From NCBI GenBank assembly GCA_023263235.1, contig JALQXE010000026.1:1-7665 (forward strand): DNA of 7,665 nucleotides. The letters run 5' to 3'. Positions 1,012-7,665 of this stretch are shown here, piece after piece. The notes under the pieces are model-generated. The model did not search any database, was not told where the DNA came from, and worked only from the letters and a program-made list of their open reading frames with translations. The position numbers and the translations under genes are program-made. Each line of letters opens with the position of its first letter. Within the stretch, counting starts at the first letter, position 1. The DNA is from Sediminibacterium sp. (GTDB lineage Bacteria > Bacteroidota > Bacteroidia > Chitinophagales > Chitinophagaceae).

Positions 1012-3201
1012 CTATTTAATATCTATTTTTAAACTTAATAAATAATTTCGACCTGCCATTGGGAAATAATTATTGGAAGTTGTTGTCACGCCTCCATAAA
1101 CATAGCTATAAGTATAGCCGTTAGGTTCGTATTTCACATCCATCAAGTTTAATGCATAAAATTGTAATAATGCATTCCAATTTTTCTTTTTTGTTAATGT
1201 ATATGCAATACTTAAGTCATTTGTGAAATAGGCGTTAAGTATTCGCTTTTCATTTTGTGTGTTGTCTAAATATTGTTTTGACACATATTTACTTGTCCAG
1301 TTTATATTTAATTTATCGGATGCTTTATAAATAAATTGATGAGATGCAGTAGTGTTTGGGGAGAGCGCTATATTGGTATTATGATGCGCAATAGATACTT
1401 GGCCTCCATTATCATAGTCGTCAAAGTATTCAGTAAAATGCTTTATTTTATTATTGCTAAAAGTAATATTGCCAATACTTGTTAAATACTTATTTAACTG
1501 CCAGCTTTCTTCAATTTCAATACCAGCACGATAACTATTTGGAACATTCGTCCTAGTATAGGAGCCTACATCATTAATTTTTCCAGTAAGCACCAATTGA
1601 TCCTTGTAATTCATATAGTAAAGGTTTACGCCCCAACTAAATTTTTCCCCTTTATGATTAAATCCTGTTTCCCAGTCATAAAGAGTTTCTTTTTTTGGTT
1701 GTTGTGTAATGCCTGCTTCAAAATCGTCTCTGTTGGGCTCTTTATTTGAAATAGCAATACTTGAATAATAGGTAGTATTGTTTACTTTATAACTAATTCC
1801 CACTTTTGGATTAAAAAAATTAAAGCTTCTATCTATAAGTAGAGTGGGGTTGCCATCAAATCCATTCATTGTATGTTGAACATGCCTAAATTGAAGATCT
1901 ACAAAACTGCTTAATTGTTTATTGTATGCGTGTTCCCATTTCGCATAACTATTGTATTCTTTTTTGACAGCATCATTATTATAATAGTTGAATTGCAATA
2001 AATCAAGTGTTTCCAAAATTGCATTATTGCTTGGCAGTTCCCCAAAATGTAACCCATCATAAATACTCCATCCGCCGCCAACAATAATTTGTTCTTTATT
2101 TTTCTTATAGGTTAAGGATGCAATTTGGCCATAAAATTTATTATCTAACCACCTTCTTCTAATTAAATCTACAGGATTGTTGGCGCCAATATTAATACCA
2201 TAATCACTTGGGGATACGCCGGCTTTATACTCTTCATAATATCCGCGACCTGTGGTTAAAAATAAAGCAGTACTCCATTGTAGGTTCGTGTTTATTGTTT
2301 TATTATAAAACAATTGGTAATGTGTTTGAACATAATTATCGGTTTGATTCTCATATGGGGTTCCACTTTTTTCAGTACCTGCAGGGTTATATGTTCTGTT
2401 GGTAAGCAAACTATCCTCGGGAACGCCATACCAGGCCTGGTAGGTTTTTTCTTTTCCAGAAAATATATTTAAACGTAAGGAAGAATTGTAGCCCCAGTAG
2501 GTGGTGCTTATATAAAAAGATTTCAAATTGGAACTAGCTCTGTCTATATAACCATCGCTCATTATATTACTAAGGCGCCCATCAATTGTAAAACGATTAT
2601 TAATTAATCCTGTTCCAAAAAGTAAGTTATTTTTTTGTGTATTAAATGATCCAAAACTATTGTTTAATGTTAAATAGGGTAAGGGTTTATAGTCATTGGT
2701 TGCTAAATTGATGGTTGCACCAAATGCGCTTGATCCATTGGTGGATGTTCCTACCCCTCTTTGAATTTGTATGCTATTTGCGCTGGAACTAAAATCCGGA
2801 AGGTCCACAAGATATGCTCCCATACTTTCTGCGTCATTGTATGGTATCCCATTAAGGGTGATATTTATTCTTGTAGCATCTGTTCCTCTTATTCTCACCC
2901 CTGTATATCCAATGCCTGTTCCTGCATCTGAATTAGCCACAATTGAAGGTGTATTTTGGATGATAAAAGGCAAATCTTGCCCAAAATTCACTTGGGCAAT
3001 TTGTTGTGCATTTATATTGCTTTTTGCAAATGGACTATTGTCGCGAACTCTTACAGCGCTTACTTCCAATGGAGGCAAACTTCGGATACTGTCTTGAATT
3101 TTTTGAACACTGTCCTTTTTTAAAAGGCTTTGCTTAGTTTGCTGAGCCATTGCAGGGGCCAATAGCATTAGCATGGTGATTGTTCCCAATAACTTAGTCA
3201 T
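1012..3201 (-). CDS. TonB-dependent outer-membrane receptor, probable thiamine-compound importer
   Basis: This 729-residue protein has a signal peptide (MTKLLGTITMLMLLAPAMA, cleavage near AMA-QQ), a TonB-box-like segment around LEVSAVRV (45-52) and a plug domain over about 60-170. The plug carries VRIRGTDATRINITLNGIP and a later IQIQRGVGTSTNGSSAFGA segment. A long beta-barrel rich in Tyr, Asn and Ser follows to the C-terminus (SLKIDIK). It lacks the N-terminal carboxypeptidase-like domain of SusC proteins and no SusD partner is next to it, so it is closer to the vitamin/siderophore receptor type. The substrate call comes from the TPP riboswitch 72 bp upstream on the same strand. THI-element-controlled TonB receptors are known in Bacteroidota and are assigned to thiamine uptake. 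No pnuT or thiamine pyrophosphokinase gene is visible nearby. Receptor identity is near certain; substrate is inferred from regulation. Confidence 0.9.
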   Translation of the reverse strand: MTKLLGTITMLMLLAPAMAQQTKQSLLKKDSVQKIQDSIRSLPPLEVSAVRVRDNSPFAKSNINAQQIAQVNFGQDLPFIIQNTPSIVANSDAGTGIGYTGVRIRGTDATRINITLNGIPYNDAESMGAYLVDLPDFSSSANSIQIQRGVGTSTNGSSAFGATINLATNDYKPLPYLTLNNSFGSFNTQKNNLLFGTGLINNRFTIDGRLSNIMSDGYIDRASSNLKSFYISTTYWGYNSSLRLNIFSGKEKTYQAWYGVPEDSLLTNRTYNPAGTEKSGTPYENQTDNYVQTHYQLFYNKTINTNLQWSTALFLTTGRGYYEEYKAGVSPSDYGINIGANNPVDLIRRRWLDNKFYGQIASLTYKKNKEQIIVGGGWSIYDGLHFGELPSNNAILETLDLLQFNYYNNDAVKKEYNSYAKWEHAYNKQLSSFVDLQFRHVQHTMNGFDGNPTLLIDRSFNFFNPKVGISYKVNNTTYYSSIAISNKEPNRDDFEAGITQQPKKETLYDWETGFNHKGEKFSWGVNLYYMNYKDQLVLTGKINDVGSYTRTNVPNSYRAGIEIEESWQLNKYLTSIGNITFSNNKIKHFTEYFDDYDNGGQVSIAHHNTNIALSPNTTASHQFIYKASDKLNINWTSKYVSKQYLDNTQNEKRILNAYFTNDLSIAYTLTKKKNWNALLQFYALNLMDVKYEPNGYTYSYVYGGVTTTSNNYFPMAGRNYLLSLKIDIK

Positions 3202-3272
3202 TACTTTAATTTAACTATCAATAAATGGGAACAGGAATAATTAGCTTTGAGAAGTGCACGAGTGGTGCGGTA

Positions 3273-3341
3273 CCTTCCCTTCGCAGGCATTACCCTGTTC
3301 AGGTTCAACGGGTTTTATCTCAGCTTTTGACAGCACCCCGA
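3273..3341 (-). ncRNA. TPP riboswitch (THI element)
   Basis: On the minus strand the conserved TPP aptamer blocks appear in order: GGGGTGC (3339-3333), CTGAGA (3323-3318), GAACCTGA (3306-3299), the CAGG...CCTG P5 arm enclosing GTAATG, and CGAAGGGAA (3283-3275). These are the CUGAGA and AUAAUGCC/CGAAGGGA signatures that bind the pyrimidine and pyrophosphate ends of TPP; here the AUAAUGCC block reads GTAATGCC. Only a short P1 (about 3 bp, CCT with AGG) is obvious. The aptamer starts a few bases after the predicted promoter, and about 70 nt of leader separate it from the receptor ATG at 3201. High TPP should switch the receptor off. No canonical terminator hairpin with a U-run lies in the leader, so control is probably at translation start or through an alternative pairing (3229-3235 with 3294-3300). 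Confidence 0.95.
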
Positions 3342-3349
3342 GGACAGGG

Positions 3350-3380
3350 CAAAATTAACTGCAACGTTTTAATTGGCCAA
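3350..3380 (-). promoter_or_regulatory. Bacteroidota-type promoter for riboswitch and TonB receptor
   Basis: On the minus strand, TTG (3380-3378), a 20-base spacer, then TAATTTTG (3357-3350) match the Bacteroidota -33/-7 consensus TTTG-N19-21-TAnnTTTG, with the -7 box exact. Transcription would start within a few bases, right at the 5' edge of the TPP aptamer, which supports the call. It overlaps the candidate divergent promoter of the gene at 3430. Confidence 0.7.
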
Positions 3381-3383
3381 CTG

Positions 3384-3391
3384 TAACTTTG
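3384..3391 (+). promoter_or_regulatory. Candidate -7 box for the GIN-domain gene
   Basis: TAACTTTG matches TAnnTTTG exactly and lies about 40 bases before the ATG at 3430, a sensible leader length. No good TTG is found 19-21 bases upstream (the closest is CTG at 3359-3361, spacer 22), so the -33 half is weak. The promoter region would overlap the minus-strand promoter at 3350-3380. Confidence 0.4.
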
Positions 3392-3429
3392 ATTTATGAT
3401 TTTCGTTATACGATAAATTAAGACTAACT

Positions 3430-4212
3430 ATGAAAAATCTATTTCTCGCTTTCTTTGTACTATTTGCCTCTATATCCCAGGCGCAAAATTCCTCTTTAAT
3501 TTATGATAATAACGCTCAGGTTAGACAGGTAGGGAATTTCTCGTCAATTAAAGTTTCCAGTGGAATAGATTTATATTTAACTCAATCAGAAAAATGCGAA
3601 ATCGCAGTTAGTGCCTCAAAAAATGAAATCAGAGATCGTATTCATACAACAGTGGAGGGTAGTACCTTGGTCATAAAATTTGAAAATTCCAAAGGCTGGT
3701 CAGGCTGGAATAATTGGGGTAATTATAAAATGAAGGCATATGTAAGTGTTAAAGAGTTGAATGCTTTATCAGCTTCAGGAGCATCAAATATTCGTTTATT
3801 GAATAAAATTGCCGCTAAGAAATTACAAGTAAAACTTTCGGGCGCTAGTGATTTTGATGGAGAGATTGAAGCTGGCGCAATAGATTTAAATATATCTGGG
3901 GCCTCAAATTATAAAGGACAATTAAACGCCAATTCATTTACGTTAGACGCATCTGGTGCAAGTCAGTGTTCAATGAAAGGTGCGGTGGATGATATGTCCA
4001 TTGAATTATCTGGTGCAAGCAGTGCAAAGTTATTTGATTTGTTCAGTAAAGGTGCAATTGTTACCACTTCTGGAGCTAGTCTTGCTCAAGTACAGGTTAG
4101 TCAGCTTTTAAAAGCACATGCTTCAGGCGCGAGCGATATCATTTATCAAGGAGAAGCTACAGCAAAAGAGATTGAAAAATCTGGCGGGTCAAATATTCGT
4201 CACAAGGATTAA
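3430..4212 (+). CDS. Exported GIN-domain (DUF2807) beta-solenoid protein
   Basis: This 260-residue protein starts with a signal peptide (MKNLFLAFFVLFASISQA, then QN). The segment VRQVGNFSSIKVSSGIDLYLTQ (about 31-52) is the usual beginning of the GIN domain, also called DUF2807 or putative auto-transporter adhesin head. The C-terminal half is a repeat: SGAS-type turns start at residues 116, 137, 156, 175, 194, 214, 232 and 251 (the last is SGGS), a period of about 19 residues, as expected for the rungs of a parallel beta-helix. The start is chosen because the signal peptide follows it directly. There is no Shine-Dalgarno site, as usual in this phylum. It is divergent from the TonB receptor and convergent with the gene at 4232-4711. 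A cell-surface or periplasmic location is likely. The molecular role of the family is unclear; none is assigned. Confidence 0.9.
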   Translation: MKNLFLAFFVLFASISQAQNSSLIYDNNAQVRQVGNFSSIKVSSGIDLYLTQSEKCEIAVSASKNEIRDRIHTTVEGSTLVIKFENSKGWSGWNNWGNYKMKAYVSVKELNALSASGASNIRLLNKIAAKKLQVKLSGASDFDGEIEAGAIDLNISGASNYKGQLNANSFTLDASGASQCSMKGAVDDMSIELSGASSAKLFDLFSKGAIVTTSGASLAQVQVSQLLKAHASGASDIIYQGEATAKEIEKSGGSNIRHKD

Positions 4213-4231
4213 TTGATTTGAGATTTTGCGC

Positions 4232-4711
4232 TTAAAAAATTTTGTGCAAAAGCTTAAAGCCAAACATATTCCAAGTGCTTGAACCATTAGTTTTTGAGCT
4301 AGTATAGTGGGCAACAAAATCAATACTTTTAAAACTGTAAGAAATTTGGGGGCTAATTGTAAAACCACCTTTCGTTGAACCACCTGCAGTAGAACTGCCA
4401 TATCCAATACCAATACCGGGTTTAAAATTATTGATATTAACATTGGCACCCACTAACATTGGTATAAATGCAACGTTGAAGCCATTGTTTAAATAGGCAT
4501 TGTATCCAGTTTGAGCAAAGGCTTCCACATTTTCAGAAAGGCTTGCTTTTGCAGTTAAATCCAAGCCAAATCCGCTGGTTGTTTTTGTATTGCCAGTGGC
4601 TTTGTAACTAGAATAACCTCCACCAAAGCTTACGGAGTATTTTTGTTGTGCGCTTGCGTTAAATGTGATAAGCGTTAAGAATGTGAAACTGAATAATAAA
4701 GACTTTTTCAT
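4232..4711 (-). CDS. Small outer-membrane beta-barrel protein
   Basis: This 159-residue protein has a clear signal peptide (MKKSLLFSFTFLTLITFNASA, mature start near QQKYSVSFGGG). The rest alternates polar and aromatic or aliphatic residues in short strands separated by Gly/Ser/Asn/Thr-rich turns (FGGGYSSYKATGNTKTTSG; GIGIGYGSSTAGGSTKGGF). It ends in phenylalanine (LLHKIF), as many outer-membrane barrels do. Size and pattern fit the 8-stranded OmpA/Opa-like porin-fold barrels common in Bacteroidota. Its role is unknown: such proteins are often annotated only as outer-membrane beta-barrel. Its stop lies 19 bp from the stop of the convergent GIN-domain gene. A smaller open frame over 4189-4449 on the same strand is a shadow. 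Confidence 0.8.
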   Translation of the reverse strand: MKKSLLFSFTFLTLITFNASAQQKYSVSFGGGYSSYKATGNTKTTSGFGLDLTAKASLSENVEAFAQTGYNAYLNNGFNVAFIPMLVGANVNINNFKPGIGIGYGSSTAGGSTKGGFTISPQISYSFKSIDFVAHYTSSKTNGSSTWNMFGFKLLHKIF

Positions 4712-4905: not shown

Positions 4906-4936
4906 TTGCATAAGAACTTATTATGCACTATCTTTG
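4906..4936 (+). promoter_or_regulatory. Promoter of tRNA-fMet
   Basis: TTG (4906-4908), a 20-base spacer and TATCTTTG (4929-4936) match the Bacteroidota consensus very well. The predicted start leaves a leader of only a few bases before the tRNA 5' end at 4949. An intact promoter shows that the left side of the tRNA junction is the native chromosomal side. Confidence 0.75.
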
Positions 4937-4948
4937 CCGTCCAAACAT

Positions 4949-4986
4949 CGCGAGGTAGAGCAGCGGTAGCTCGTCGGGCTCATAAC
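4949..4986 (+). tRNA. Initiator tRNA-fMet(CAT), 5' half only, disrupted
   Basis: The 5' half of an initiator tRNA is complete. It has acceptor strand CGCGAGG (4949-4955), TA, a D-arm of GAGC-AGCGGTA-GCTC (4958-4972), G26, anticodon 5' stem TCGGG (4974-4978) and loop CTCATAA (4979-4985) with anticodon CAT at 4981-4983. The C at position 1 and the GGG of the anticodon stem are initiator hallmarks. The next bases should be CCCGA plus T-arm and acceptor; only the first C (4986) fits, then GATTTATAG follows. No T-arm, acceptor 3' strand or CCA is found downstream, and no group I intron features were seen. The break fits element integration at the anticodon loop, with the matching 3' half expected at the other end of the element. 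Confidence 0.85.
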
Positions 4987-4988
4987 GA
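4974..4988 (+). other. Probable attachment-site junction (attL/attR) in the anticodon stem-loop
   Basis: The chromosomal left arm TCGGG, the 7-base loop CTCATAA and the foreign right arm CGATT make a plausible hybrid core site. TCG (4974-4976) and CGA (4986-4988) are still inverted around it. Tyrosine recombinases often use the anticodon stem-loop of tRNA genes, with arms as inverted binding sites and the loop as crossover region. The recombinase gene ends about 100 bp away. Exact crossover bases cannot be fixed without the other junction. Confidence 0.6.
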
Positions 4989-5032
4989 TTTATAGTTGAC
5001 GATAAGGTTGAAATGAAAATATTTAAAATGAA

Positions 5033-5061
5033 CCACTTGAATAAAAACAAGTGGTTTTTTT
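5033..5061 (+). terminator. Rho-independent terminator
   Basis: CCACTTG (5033-5039), an 8-base loop AATAAAAA and CAAGTGG (5048-5054) form a perfect 7-bp stem followed by seven T residues. On the plus strand it would end transcripts from the tRNA-fMet promoter about 120 bases after their start, shielding the element from antisense reading into the integrase gene. On the minus strand the stem is followed by TTCATTTT, a weaker tail that may also serve the integrase transcript. Confidence 0.8.
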
Positions 5062-5067
5062 ATGCCC

Positions 5068-5087
5068 GCGCTAGACTTTTGCGCTAG
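5068..5087. repeat. Two direct GCGCTAG repeats near the junction
   Basis: GCGCTAG occurs at 5068-5074 and 5081-5087, 13 bp apart start to start, between the terminator and the integrase stop. Short direct repeats near an attachment site can be arm-type recombinase or excisionase binding sites; here that is only a suggestion. Confidence 0.3.
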
Positions 5088-5090
5088 GAT

Positions 5091-6335
5091 TTAGCCAAAT
5101 ATTCTTACCTCTAGTGCGGCTTTTTCAACAGCCGATAAGATGGTTGGGTCGATGTAATGGTCGCTTAAAATCTTTGTTCCAGCATGTGAGGTAATCTTAC
5201 CTGTATCTGAACCTAGTACTTGATTGGTCCAAGAAATATAGGTCTTTCTTAAATGCTTTAGTGTAATCTCGCTTTTTATACCAGCGCCATTCTTGAAGTG
5301 GGTAAATGCTTTAGTTATCATTTCCATCATTGTATTGGTGCTATACTCTTCGGTTGGGTCAATAATTCGTTCGGTGGTGTGTTTTTTCTGTTCCATTCCC
5401 ATATCCATTAGCGCCTTTTCAAGGTCAGCGCCAATGGGGATGTATTTTATGTACTCCTTGTCTGTTTTTTGAATTCTGTTTGCTTTTAAGTTTCCAATCA
5501 TAAAGAATTTGGTGCCATTTTTCAAAGTATATATATCATTCCATCTTAATTGGATGATTTCCTCTCTGCGACCACCTGCTAGTAAAAAGAGTCTAAAGGC
5601 GTCTTTCATCCAAGGCTGGTACAAATTGATTTTCCTGCCATTATTCTGTACTAAAATAGGAGTGTACGTGTCTAATGCGTCTAGTATAGCTTCAAATTCT
5701 TCTCTGTTGATGGTTTTGATTGTCTTTTTGGGTACTGGCAAGCTGGCGCACTCCTTAAAATAGTTCTTCATTGATAGATCTTCCTTTTCTATAAGGAAAT
5801 CAAAGAAGGTAGTAAGGGCCTGTATGATGTTATTTACGGATTTAGGGTGGTATTTTTCCTTCATCTTCCCAAAAAAGTAAGATACGTCCGACCGATTGAT
5901 TTGAGGGGGTTTTATCCACCTGATTTTTCTATTTTCTTTTACGCTATCATGAAACTTAATCAAAAACCCAACGGTCTCCTTGATGTACTTTGGTGTTAGG
6001 GTTTTGTTGTACTGCTGATACTCGCTATCGCCGCTAAGGTACATCTGATATTTTACTATAGCAGTTGCAAGGTCATAATCATTGCCAACTGTGCTTGTGG
6101 GTGTCAGGTTTCTTTGTTCATCCAGCCCCTTTTTGAAATTAATCGCCTCAACAAGCGCGTCATCGTAATCAGTAGCTTCAAGGATTTTGCTTTTGTGTTT
6201 TCCGGTAATAGCGTCGATATAGTTAGCTCTGAAGTTTTGGTGCTCATAATGTTTACATCCGTTGTTATGTTTTCTACACTTACGACACCAGATTTTAATA
6301 CCGTTTCTGTTTTTGCGTAGTTTTAATTTGATCAT
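5091..6335 (-). CDS. Tyrosine recombinase / integrase
   Basis: This 414-residue enzyme is of the phage-integrase family, cutting and rejoining DNA through a tyrosine-linked intermediate to insert or excise the element. The visible catalytic set is Arg256 (LAGGRREEIIQLRW), a likely beta-hairpin Lys284 (LKANR), His361 and Arg363 (LKHLRKTY), His384 (SHAG) and nucleophile Tyr394 (SDHYID). About 90-210 is the SAM-like core-binding domain. The N-terminus carries a cysteine/histidine cluster (C17, C20, H23, C27, H29, H32) that could bind zinc, followed by an arm-binding-like region. Its ATG overlaps the stop of the upstream 119-residue gene by 4 bp, so the two are probably translated together. Its 3' end faces the tRNA-fMet junction, the likely target. 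The gene looks intact. Confidence 0.95.
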   Translation of the reverse strand: MIKLKLRKNRNGIKIWCRKCRKHNNGCKHYEHQNFRANYIDAITGKHKSKILEATDYDDALVEAINFKKGLDEQRNLTPTSTVGNDYDLATAIVKYQMYLSGDSEYQQYNKTLTPKYIKETVGFLIKFHDSVKENRKIRWIKPPQINRSDVSYFFGKMKEKYHPKSVNNIIQALTTFFDFLIEKEDLSMKNYFKECASLPVPKKTIKTINREEFEAILDALDTYTPILVQNNGRKINLYQPWMKDAFRLFLLAGGRREEIIQLRWNDIYTLKNGTKFFMIGNLKANRIQKTDKEYIKYIPIGADLEKALMDMGMEQKKHTTERIIDPTEEYSTNTMMEMITKAFTHFKNGAGIKSEITLKHLRKTYISWTNQVLGSDTGKITSHAGTKILSDHYIDPTILSAVEKAALEVRIFG

Positions 6336-6691
6336 CTATATAGCCGTTTTAGAAGTTCTTCTTGCTGTTTGTTCTTTGGTTTTATTCTTGTGGTTGGCGC
6401 AGATACTTGATATTCGGTTTCTAGTTCAAGTAGGAATAGCTCATACAGTTGGTTATTGCCGTCGCAAAGGATTTTAAGCTTCTCTTTCCATAGGTGTGGG
6501 TACCTTTTTTTGCAGTCTAATACCAATGGTTTTAGATACTGCATTTGGACTTCTATTTGAAACACATATTTTTGTTTGTCAATGTGAATTTTCACGTCAT
6601 TATCTGTCAACCAAGATTCAATTGTATCTCGGTCTTTTTTCCTGATAATTCTACCAGCTTCTATAATTGATATTCTTGAAAAATCTTTCAT
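6332..6691 (-). CDS. Small helix-turn-helix protein, candidate excisionase / directionality factor
   Basis: This 119-residue basic protein has an N-terminal segment (about 7-48) compatible with an excisionase/MerR-type winged helix-turn-helix: SIIEAGRII, then RDTIESWLTDNDVKI and a strand-like KQKYVFQIEVQ wing. The rest is helical with a Lys/Arg-rich C-terminus (KPKNKQQEELLKRLYR). The stop codon shares ATGA with the integrase start, which implies translational coupling and a joint role. Small DNA-binding proteins beside tyrosine recombinases often control excision. The fold call comes from pattern reading only; it could instead be a transcription regulator or an unrelated accessory protein. 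The ATG is the first in frame after the upstream non-coding region. Confidence 0.6.
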   Translation of the reverse strand: MKDFSRISIIEAGRIIRKKDRDTIESWLTDNDVKIHIDKQKYVFQIEVQMQYLKPLVLDCKKRYPHLWKEKLKILCDGNNQLYELFLLELETEYQVSAPTTRIKPKNKQQEELLKRLYR

Positions 6692-6899: not shown

Positions 6900-7665
6900 T
6901 TAAATTTGGTCATCAATACCGTTCAAAAAATTTCTGCCAAAATTTTCCAAAAAATCAGAACCTCTTTTGATATTTGAACTGAATACGCCGTTTATTTTTT
7001 TTAAGTACTTTTCTTCTGTGTTTATTGGTTCTATTTTAGACCATTGGTTATCTATATCTATTAAATGTGGATTAGGATCAATCTGGGACGACTTTGTTTT
7101 GCAACCAGCAACTACCCCTGTTATTTCAAGAAGTCGTCTTAAAACGTACCCATTTAGTTTTTGAACGTATTCTGAAGTAGTAAACACTCCGTCGTGAATT
7201 GTTAACAGTGGCGCATTTGGGTGTAGTTCATTAAACTCCCTACAAATGACATTTAGTAGCAGGTAGCTTTCGGCTCTTTGCAACAGGTACGAAAACCGCT
7301 GCTTTCCAATCATTTTATGCATTCGGTTAATCCAGCTATCAACGCCAGGGAATACCGTTTGAAATTTCTGAATCTGTAGGTTGTTGTTTCTGTGGTTCAT
7401 TTTATCTTCAAACAGAACATACATCATGGTATTCTTTAGATTCTCCCTGTCTTCTTTTTTCGCCGCACTTTTTGGTGTATTAGTATATGTGTAATACCTG
7501 TCCAATATATAGGAATAGAAATCTAAATAGAAGGGTGACTGTGTGTACCTGTTAATGCATTCTAATTCAGAGGTACTAAAAAAATTACACCACATAAATG
7601 AAGAAGAGTCACTTACATTAGATATAAAGGAATTAGTATAACCAGTATTACTAGAATAGTATAGA
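6900..7665 (-). CDS. C-terminal part of a single-subunit polymerase-like protein, 5' end outside window
   Basis: The frame has no stop from the TAA at 6900-6902 to the right edge, so the ATG at 7595 is likely internal and only the C-terminal 254 residues are seen. Numbered from that Met, R50-x3-K54-x7-F62 (RENLKNTMMYVLF) has the spacing of motif B (O helix) of family A DNA polymerases and T7-like RNA polymerases. FPGVDSWINRMHK (82-94) resembles the segment after it. A helix LLQRAESYLLLNVICREF (104-121) precedes LLTIHDGVFTT, whose His134-Asp135 matches motif C (HD). Motif A would lie in the missing part. The distance from motif B to C (84 residues) is shorter than in Taq polymerase (about 125), so it would be a compact variant. 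A replication role for the element is inferred; family membership is not proven. Confidence 0.55.
   Translation of the reverse strand, partial: LYYSSNTGYTNSFISNVSDSSSFMWCNFFSTSELECINRYTQSPFYLDFYSYILDRYYTYTNTPKSAAKKEDRENLKNTMMYVLFEDKMNHRNNNLQIQKFQTVFPGVDSWINRMHKMIGKQRFSYLLQRAESYLLLNVICREFNELHPNAPLLTIHDGVFTTSEYVQKLNGYVLRRLLEITGVVAGCKTKSSQIDPNPHLIDIDNQWSKIEPINTEEKYLKKINGVFSSNIKRGSDFLENFGRNFLNGIDDQI

Follow-up and report, generated by a model that had tools for sequence, protein, structure and literature searches.

Integrative elements are usually regarded as having a settled habit in which half of a tRNA gene they carry. According to the accessible part of PMC6563490, which cites Zhao and Williams 2002, recombination also occurs, less often, with the 5′ region of tRNA genes. 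In the portion of PMC10865867 available to us, phages with tRNA-dependent lysogeny are described as rebuilding the tRNA at neither junction and as carrying a whole tRNA gene, and the accessible sections of PMC12561888 describe an ordinary 3′ insertion in tRNA-Met of one Bacteroidota species. Our literature searches, several of them narrow and covering few subscription journals, found no description of an element in the initiator tRNA-fMet gene like the one reported here.

We analysed a 7,665-nucleotide stretch of DNA from a Sediminibacterium sp. contig, hereafter the window. We are highly confident that it contains the integrase-proximal junction of an integrative element in tRNA-fMet, that the integrase-distal end is where the gene is restored and that the half gene in the window is a displaced leftover. 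The window has the following features:

1012–4711, chromosomal flank: TonB receptor, DUF2807 protein and 159-aa protein, in an order shared with locus L034
4906–4936, + strand, promoter of the displaced 5′ half, TTG-N-TAnnTTTG
4949–4986, + strand, tRNA-fMet 5′ half, orphan at the junction; first 38 bases, identical to intact relatives
4979–4985, + strand, anticodon loop CTCATAA, the probable strand-exchange region; identity between empty site and element stops here (cleavage points presumed)
5030–5057, + strand, hairpin and T-run that resemble an intrinsic terminator and face the transcription coming from the displaced promoter
5067–5087, + strand, two direct repeats, CGCGCTAG and TGCGCTAG, putative integrase arm sites
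5091–6335, − strand, tyrosine integrase of 414 aa, convergent with the tRNA half
6332–6691, − strand, 119-aa protein adjoining the integrase, no family match; homologues similarly placed in related elements
6900–7664, − strand, large element protein, partial, cut by the window end; related to a 596-aa protein of locus L026

Window positions 4949–4986 read CGCGAGGTAGAGCAGCGGTAGCTCGTCGGGCTCATAAC and are followed by GATTTATAG; the intact tRNA-fMet genes of relatives have the same bases and then continue CCCGAAGGTCGG. A preliminary description of this DNA had stated that tRNA identity stops one base after the anticodon loop, and the 38 exact bases, which end one base past the seven-base loop, bear this out. 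The span that it gave, 4949–4990, starts correctly and ends four bases beyond the last shared base, 4986. It had also placed the integrase about 100 bp away, and the 3′ end of the integrase gene lies 104 bp past the break. The tRNA 3′ half is absent here, as had been claimed: ARAGORN found no tRNA in the window, and a 24-base piece of the 3′ half, searched for in the window with up to three mismatches, had no match. The contig stops inside the element, and the far junction lies outside the window. We take the motif upstream of the half gene, at 4906–4936, to be a Bacteroidota-type promoter.

Residues R256, K284, R363 and Y394 of the integrase, presumably the catalytic residues of a tyrosine recombinase, were invariant across 18 aligned rows. 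The window integrase had a Pfam score of 23.4, under the cut-off of 27.1, and matched a PHROG integrase with an E value of 1e-22; no relative of solved structure was found at 1e-3. A phage or plasmid origin, judged by the integrase, was rejected, as it had no match in either the phage or the plasmid collection. Searching viral contigs with the window integrase alone gave no match, and searching them with an integrase alignment gave one distant relative (L162, 45%). The contig of L162 stops 18 bp beyond the match, and a pattern search of its record found no tRNA-Met. The 119-aa protein may, at a guess, be an excisionase. Neither the part of the large element protein inside the window nor the 596-aa protein of L026 (3834–5624) had a Pfam match, and other elements encode a BT4734-like_N protein in place of the L026-type large protein.

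A scan of genome contigs revealed relatives of the integrase at nine loci, each from metagenome-assembled Bacteroidetes and several from Chitinophagaceae. Eight of these have a tRNA-fMet 5′ half, and the ninth (L009) has a cut integrase and no half. A later census brought the number of orphan 5′ halves to 17, the window included, with an integrase within 200 bp at 12 of them (the others are L073, L075, L077, L084 and L088). At all 12 loci of the clade with a readable flank, the orphan half adjoins the integrase. The 34-base probe matched exactly in 14 of the 17 halves, with one mismatch in L039, three in L073 and two in L084, and the promoter motif was kept at 15. In L073 and L084 the orphan half has a damaged anticodon and has lost its promoter motif, and the far copy is intact. 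This pattern is what one would expect if the left half were dead and the right copy functional, and the far copy is presumably the one expressed.

Two viral contigs also contain tRNA-fMet halves. In L212 (approximately 2098–2290) an orphan half lies less than 120 bp before an intact tRNA-fMet gene, and in L211 (9538–9560, − strand) a 5′ half sits at the contig edge. Searches with the integrase and with the remaining reference proteins gave no match on either contig.

The preliminary description had suggested a comparison with relatives lacking the element, and L034, from genome G009, provides it: behind the left flank of the window stands an uninterrupted tRNA-fMet gene. The order in L034 is TonB receptor, DUF2807, 159-aa gene, a related 160-aa gene, intact tRNA-fMet, era and a Der-like gene (Era and Der were named by eye), and 79 of the 85 bases up to 4986 are identical between L034 and the window. 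By sequence and gene order, L034 is the empty, intact site in the window's arrangement. A TPP riboswitch (3259–3350, − strand, 66.4 bits) lies upstream of the TonB receptor gene in the window, so the substrate of this receptor is probably thiamin or a precursor. In the census, era was found within 700 bp of 74 of the 77 intact genes with at least 700 bp available downstream, and a DUF2807 gene was found upstream of 52 of the 71 with at least 900 bp available upstream. The orphan half of G005 has era upstream on the opposite strand, and this different neighbourhood indicates that the target is the tRNA gene, not its surroundings. In each of the genomes G002 and G009, a single bin combines an intact native site with an element contig, which suggests that these bins are mixed in strain or content.

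Both ends of the insertion could be read on one contig in six cases, and in all six the far copy of the gene was intact, by ARAGORN in G003, G004 and G007 and by sequence in G317, G329 and G365. The two copies are 10,456 bp (G003), 12,063 bp (G004) and 32,503 bp (G007) apart in the integrase-bearing insertions, and 1,448 bp (G317), 1,159 bp (G329) and 779 bp (G365) apart in those without an integrase. The far gene of each of the six relatives is a composite, its promoter and 5′ half coming from the element and its 3′ half from the chromosome, and direct repeats containing the loop are present at both ends; these repeats are not visible in the window. The era gene lies within 200 bp downstream of the far copy in G004, G007, G317 and G329. 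The contigs of G003 and G365 stop at this point, and in both genomes a second contig opens with the intact gene and has era next to it. Four other occupied genomes (G005, G006, G008 and G382) yielded no intact gene, perhaps because their contigs break at the repeat. The far junction predicted in the preliminary description was thus looked for and found in relatives, and its first option, restoration at the far end by an element-carried 5′ half with its own promoter, is supported by six of six. The element in the window would presumably rebuild the gene in the same way.

It is improbable that the window instead records tRNA-dependent integration, in which the gene is broken at both junctions and the cell depends on a complete tRNA-fMet elsewhere, either chromosomal or within the element. 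This process is known in actinobacteriophages, as the accessible part of PMC10865867 reports, the window contig ends before the far junction, and one genome, G388, has two separate intact copies of the gene. However, all six relatives read at both ends rebuild the gene at the far end, and the part of the element inside the window has no tRNA gene. When a whole tRNA gene inside the element was sought, ARAGORN found none in the window and only the far-end copy in L003.

Under far-end rebuilding, the promoter of the left copy and that of the right copy would come from different sources. We compared the 52 bp preceding the tRNA in the two copies and found that 29 positions agreed in G001, 41 in G004, 17 in G007 and 42 in G353. 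The right promoters of G001 and G353, whose two ends sit on different contigs, were identical at 50 and 52 of 52 positions, respectively, to element-type ends from other genomes. In G003, G317, G329 and G365 the left and right copies agreed at 52, 43, 49 and 49 of 52 positions, and an imported copy is indistinguishable there. An element-like promoter also precedes L108, an intact gene that lacks repeats, so this promoter type is not exclusive to elements. The promoter motif was kept in all ten intact genes with right-end repeats. As far as these sequence comparisons go, the promoter arrives with the element and replaces that of the gene.

We then considered how many copies of the gene a cell has. 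The probe matched 81 of 101 genomes of the genus (the other 20, judged by their contig sizes, are all draft assemblies), and more than one intact match was found in six; these counts come from draft genomes with a probe allowing three mismatches, so diverged copies could be missed. In five of the six, one match lies at a contig edge with less than 140 bp upstream, which we read as one locus on two contigs. The clear exception is G388, with its two clearly separate copies. A single tRNA-fMet gene was found in most of the genomes examined, and this essential initiator gene has its promoter replaced on insertion. An orphan half or right-end repeats were found in 13 of the 81 genomes (G323 and G392 by repeats alone). 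Genomes with an A at tRNA position 7 were occupied in 0 of 20 cases, compared with 13 of 61 among the others, a difference that kinship may explain.

These counts bear on the second option of the preliminary description, a dead gene with another copy supplying the cell, from which the relatives differ: one genome of 81 clearly has two copies. That the element is stuck in a dead extra tRNA-fMet, with the cell relying on another locus, is very improbable. The displaced half alone would be non-working, and some leftovers do decay, but the site is the conserved one next to era, L034 shares the window's left flank, and most genomes with a match show one copy. An assembly chimera at the junction is scarcely credible: repeats of this size can break or misjoin metagenome assemblies, and the contigs of several relatives end at the repeat, yet other assemblies show this junction too and have the repeats at corresponding offsets, and its occurrence at 17 orphan halves (the window included) makes chance or chimera unlikely. 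An intron or trans-splicing was rejected, as the empty and rebuilt copies are continuous.

Repeats of the TGCGCTAG type mark both ends of the element. At left ends they lie 115–116 and 128–129 bases after the probe start, and at right ends 76–86 and 117–131 bases before it. Every orphan half but L084 has them (16 of 17), and so does the upstream sequence of ten intact genes; 66 intact genes had none in the stretch searched, and 12 had too little flank. Right-end repeats also lie upstream of six orphan halves, consistent with tandem insertions or remnants. The repeats would serve as arm sites for the integrase.

Relatives displayed an orphan half beside the integrase, an intact far gene, an imported promoter and an empty site, and together these suggest a mechanism. 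The integrase would recombine the anticodon-loop site of tRNA-fMet with an element attP that carries a promoter and a complete tRNA-fMet 5′ half on its integrase-distal side. Strand exchange would fall within the anticodon loop, at exact points that are presumed. The chromosomal promoter and 5′ half would be left beside the integrase, and those brought by the element would be joined to the chromosomal 3′ half at the other end, rebuilding the gene there. In ordinary relatives attP would have a 3′ half on the integrase side, whereas in the fMet clade the integrase would still face the chromosomal 5′ half.

The terminator-like hairpin would block transcription from the displaced promoter into the element. 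By a strict pattern it is present at 12 of the 17 orphan halves, it was recognized by eye in L075, L083 and L086, and it is decayed or absent in L073 and L084. Folding of a predicted 120-nt transcript of the orphan half gave the terminator stem and no tRNA shape, with a z score of −2.05; 6 of 200 shuffles folded equally well. A rather unlikely extension is that the element controls translation start. Integrase or excisionase bound at the repeats could tune initiator supply, deletion of the right end could be lethal and the element hard to lose, and the orphan half may yield a tRNA-half RNA of approximately 120 nt.

Insertions without an integrase occupy the same site in L075 (5745–6524), L073 (159–1607) and L084 (6148–7307). 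They measure 779–1,448 bp and look like cassettes moved in trans; in L073 and L084 the insertion contains a single gene, whose product has a TonB plug-like domain (Pfam was run on L073's only). In L026 (1–1484) and L036 (4438–6417) an S9-like peptidase gene, identified by eye, lies between the DUF2807 gene and the orphan half, and the right-end-like sequence upstream of that half was perhaps left by a previous insertion. Four related elements encode an additional, short tyrosine recombinase of 189–211 aa, in L026 (7403–8011), L027 (9160–9729), L029 (7952–8587) and L035 (4219–4788), confirmed by Pfam in the first three and by likeness only in L035; in L026 and L027 it stands immediately before the right-end cargo. 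The cargo differs between elements, with an HMA domain, a multicopper oxidase and DUF3347 in G004 (L027 5213–8676) and a ChrB-like regulator in G007 (L028 14546–15412). A pair resembling a GNAT toxin and ribbon-helix-helix antitoxin, recognized by eye, precedes a right-end-type junction in L075 (4650–5440) and L088 (5296–6125). Among the proteins tested from three elements, no relaxase, conjugation or virion genes were recognized. The tandem insertions and short integrase-less pieces suggest that the site is a cargo slot in freshwater Chitinophagaceae.

We found matches to the integrase reaching 1e-40 in 23 of 395 genomes of the class, including G003. At the 28 loci examined besides that of G003, an intact convergent tRNA lies near the integrase at 13 (six with a CAT anticodon), an intact divergent tRNA-Met at L171 and a truncated tRNA-Phe at L196, and at 13 no tRNA was found. 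The tRNAs of L160, L161 and L043 are intact tRNA-Met, -Asn and -Lys, respectively. Far ends were read in five cases. In G503, G704, G904 and G775 an orphan 3′ part lies 12–23 kb away, which is the ordinary mode. In G769 an intact elongator tRNA-Met and its promoter adjoin the integrase (L171 1311–1385), and an orphan 5′ half lies 7.4 kb from the intact gene (L198 4594–12035). No far fragment was found within the stretch examined in G873 or G207, and the element of G530 runs off its contig. A midpoint-rooted tree of 29 integrases placed the 11 fMet rows on one side of a branch with support of 100/100, and G503, G704, G904, G769 and a viral contig formed a neighbouring group of five (88/87). Of the four elements in this group read at both ends, three carry the 3′ half of elongator tRNA-Met and one carries the 5′ half. 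The loops are CTCATAA in tRNA-fMet and TTCATAA in the elongator, and the common TCATAA could have allowed a change of target.

The fMet clade can be set beside known systems. Like the 5′-region elements of Zhao and Williams 2002, as far as they are cited in the accessible part of PMC6563490, it recombines with the 5′ region, and in six of six relatives with both ends the element carries the 5′ part of the gene. Phages with tRNA-dependent lysogeny, as presented in the available portion of PMC10865867, share a tyrosine integrase, a tRNA target and a gene broken at the junction; the clade differs in that six of six relatives rebuild the gene. The element in the accessible sections of PMC12561888 likewise belongs to Bacteroidota and targets a tRNA-Met gene; it differs in being conjugative, 75 kb long and associated with a 17-bp repeat at the gene's 3′ end. 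The ordinary 3′-half elements in elongator tRNA-Met (G503, G704 and G904) and tRNA-His (G775) share a related convergent integrase (approximately 41%, 40%, 41% and 28% identical, respectively) and a break in the anticodon region. Ordinary elements have the 3′ half beside the integrase and the orphan 3′ part far away, whereas in the fMet clade the element's promoter and 5′ half are distal to the integrase; the clade does not follow the ordinary mode, as the orphan 5′ half stands beside the integrase at 12 of 12 loci. G769, whose integrase is 43% identical, resembles the clade in carrying a promoter and 5′ half and leaving an orphan 5′ half, but it targets elongator tRNA-Met, and its rebuilt gene lies beside the integrase, pointing away. 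A single integrase subfamily includes three modes: the ordinary one, a 5′ one in which the gene is rebuilt next to the integrase and a 5′ one in which it is rebuilt distally, the last falling on a well-supported branch. This variety makes it testable how attachment sites come to change sides. Targeting of the tRNA 5′ region has already been published; what is new here is a variant aimed at the initiator tRNA gene.
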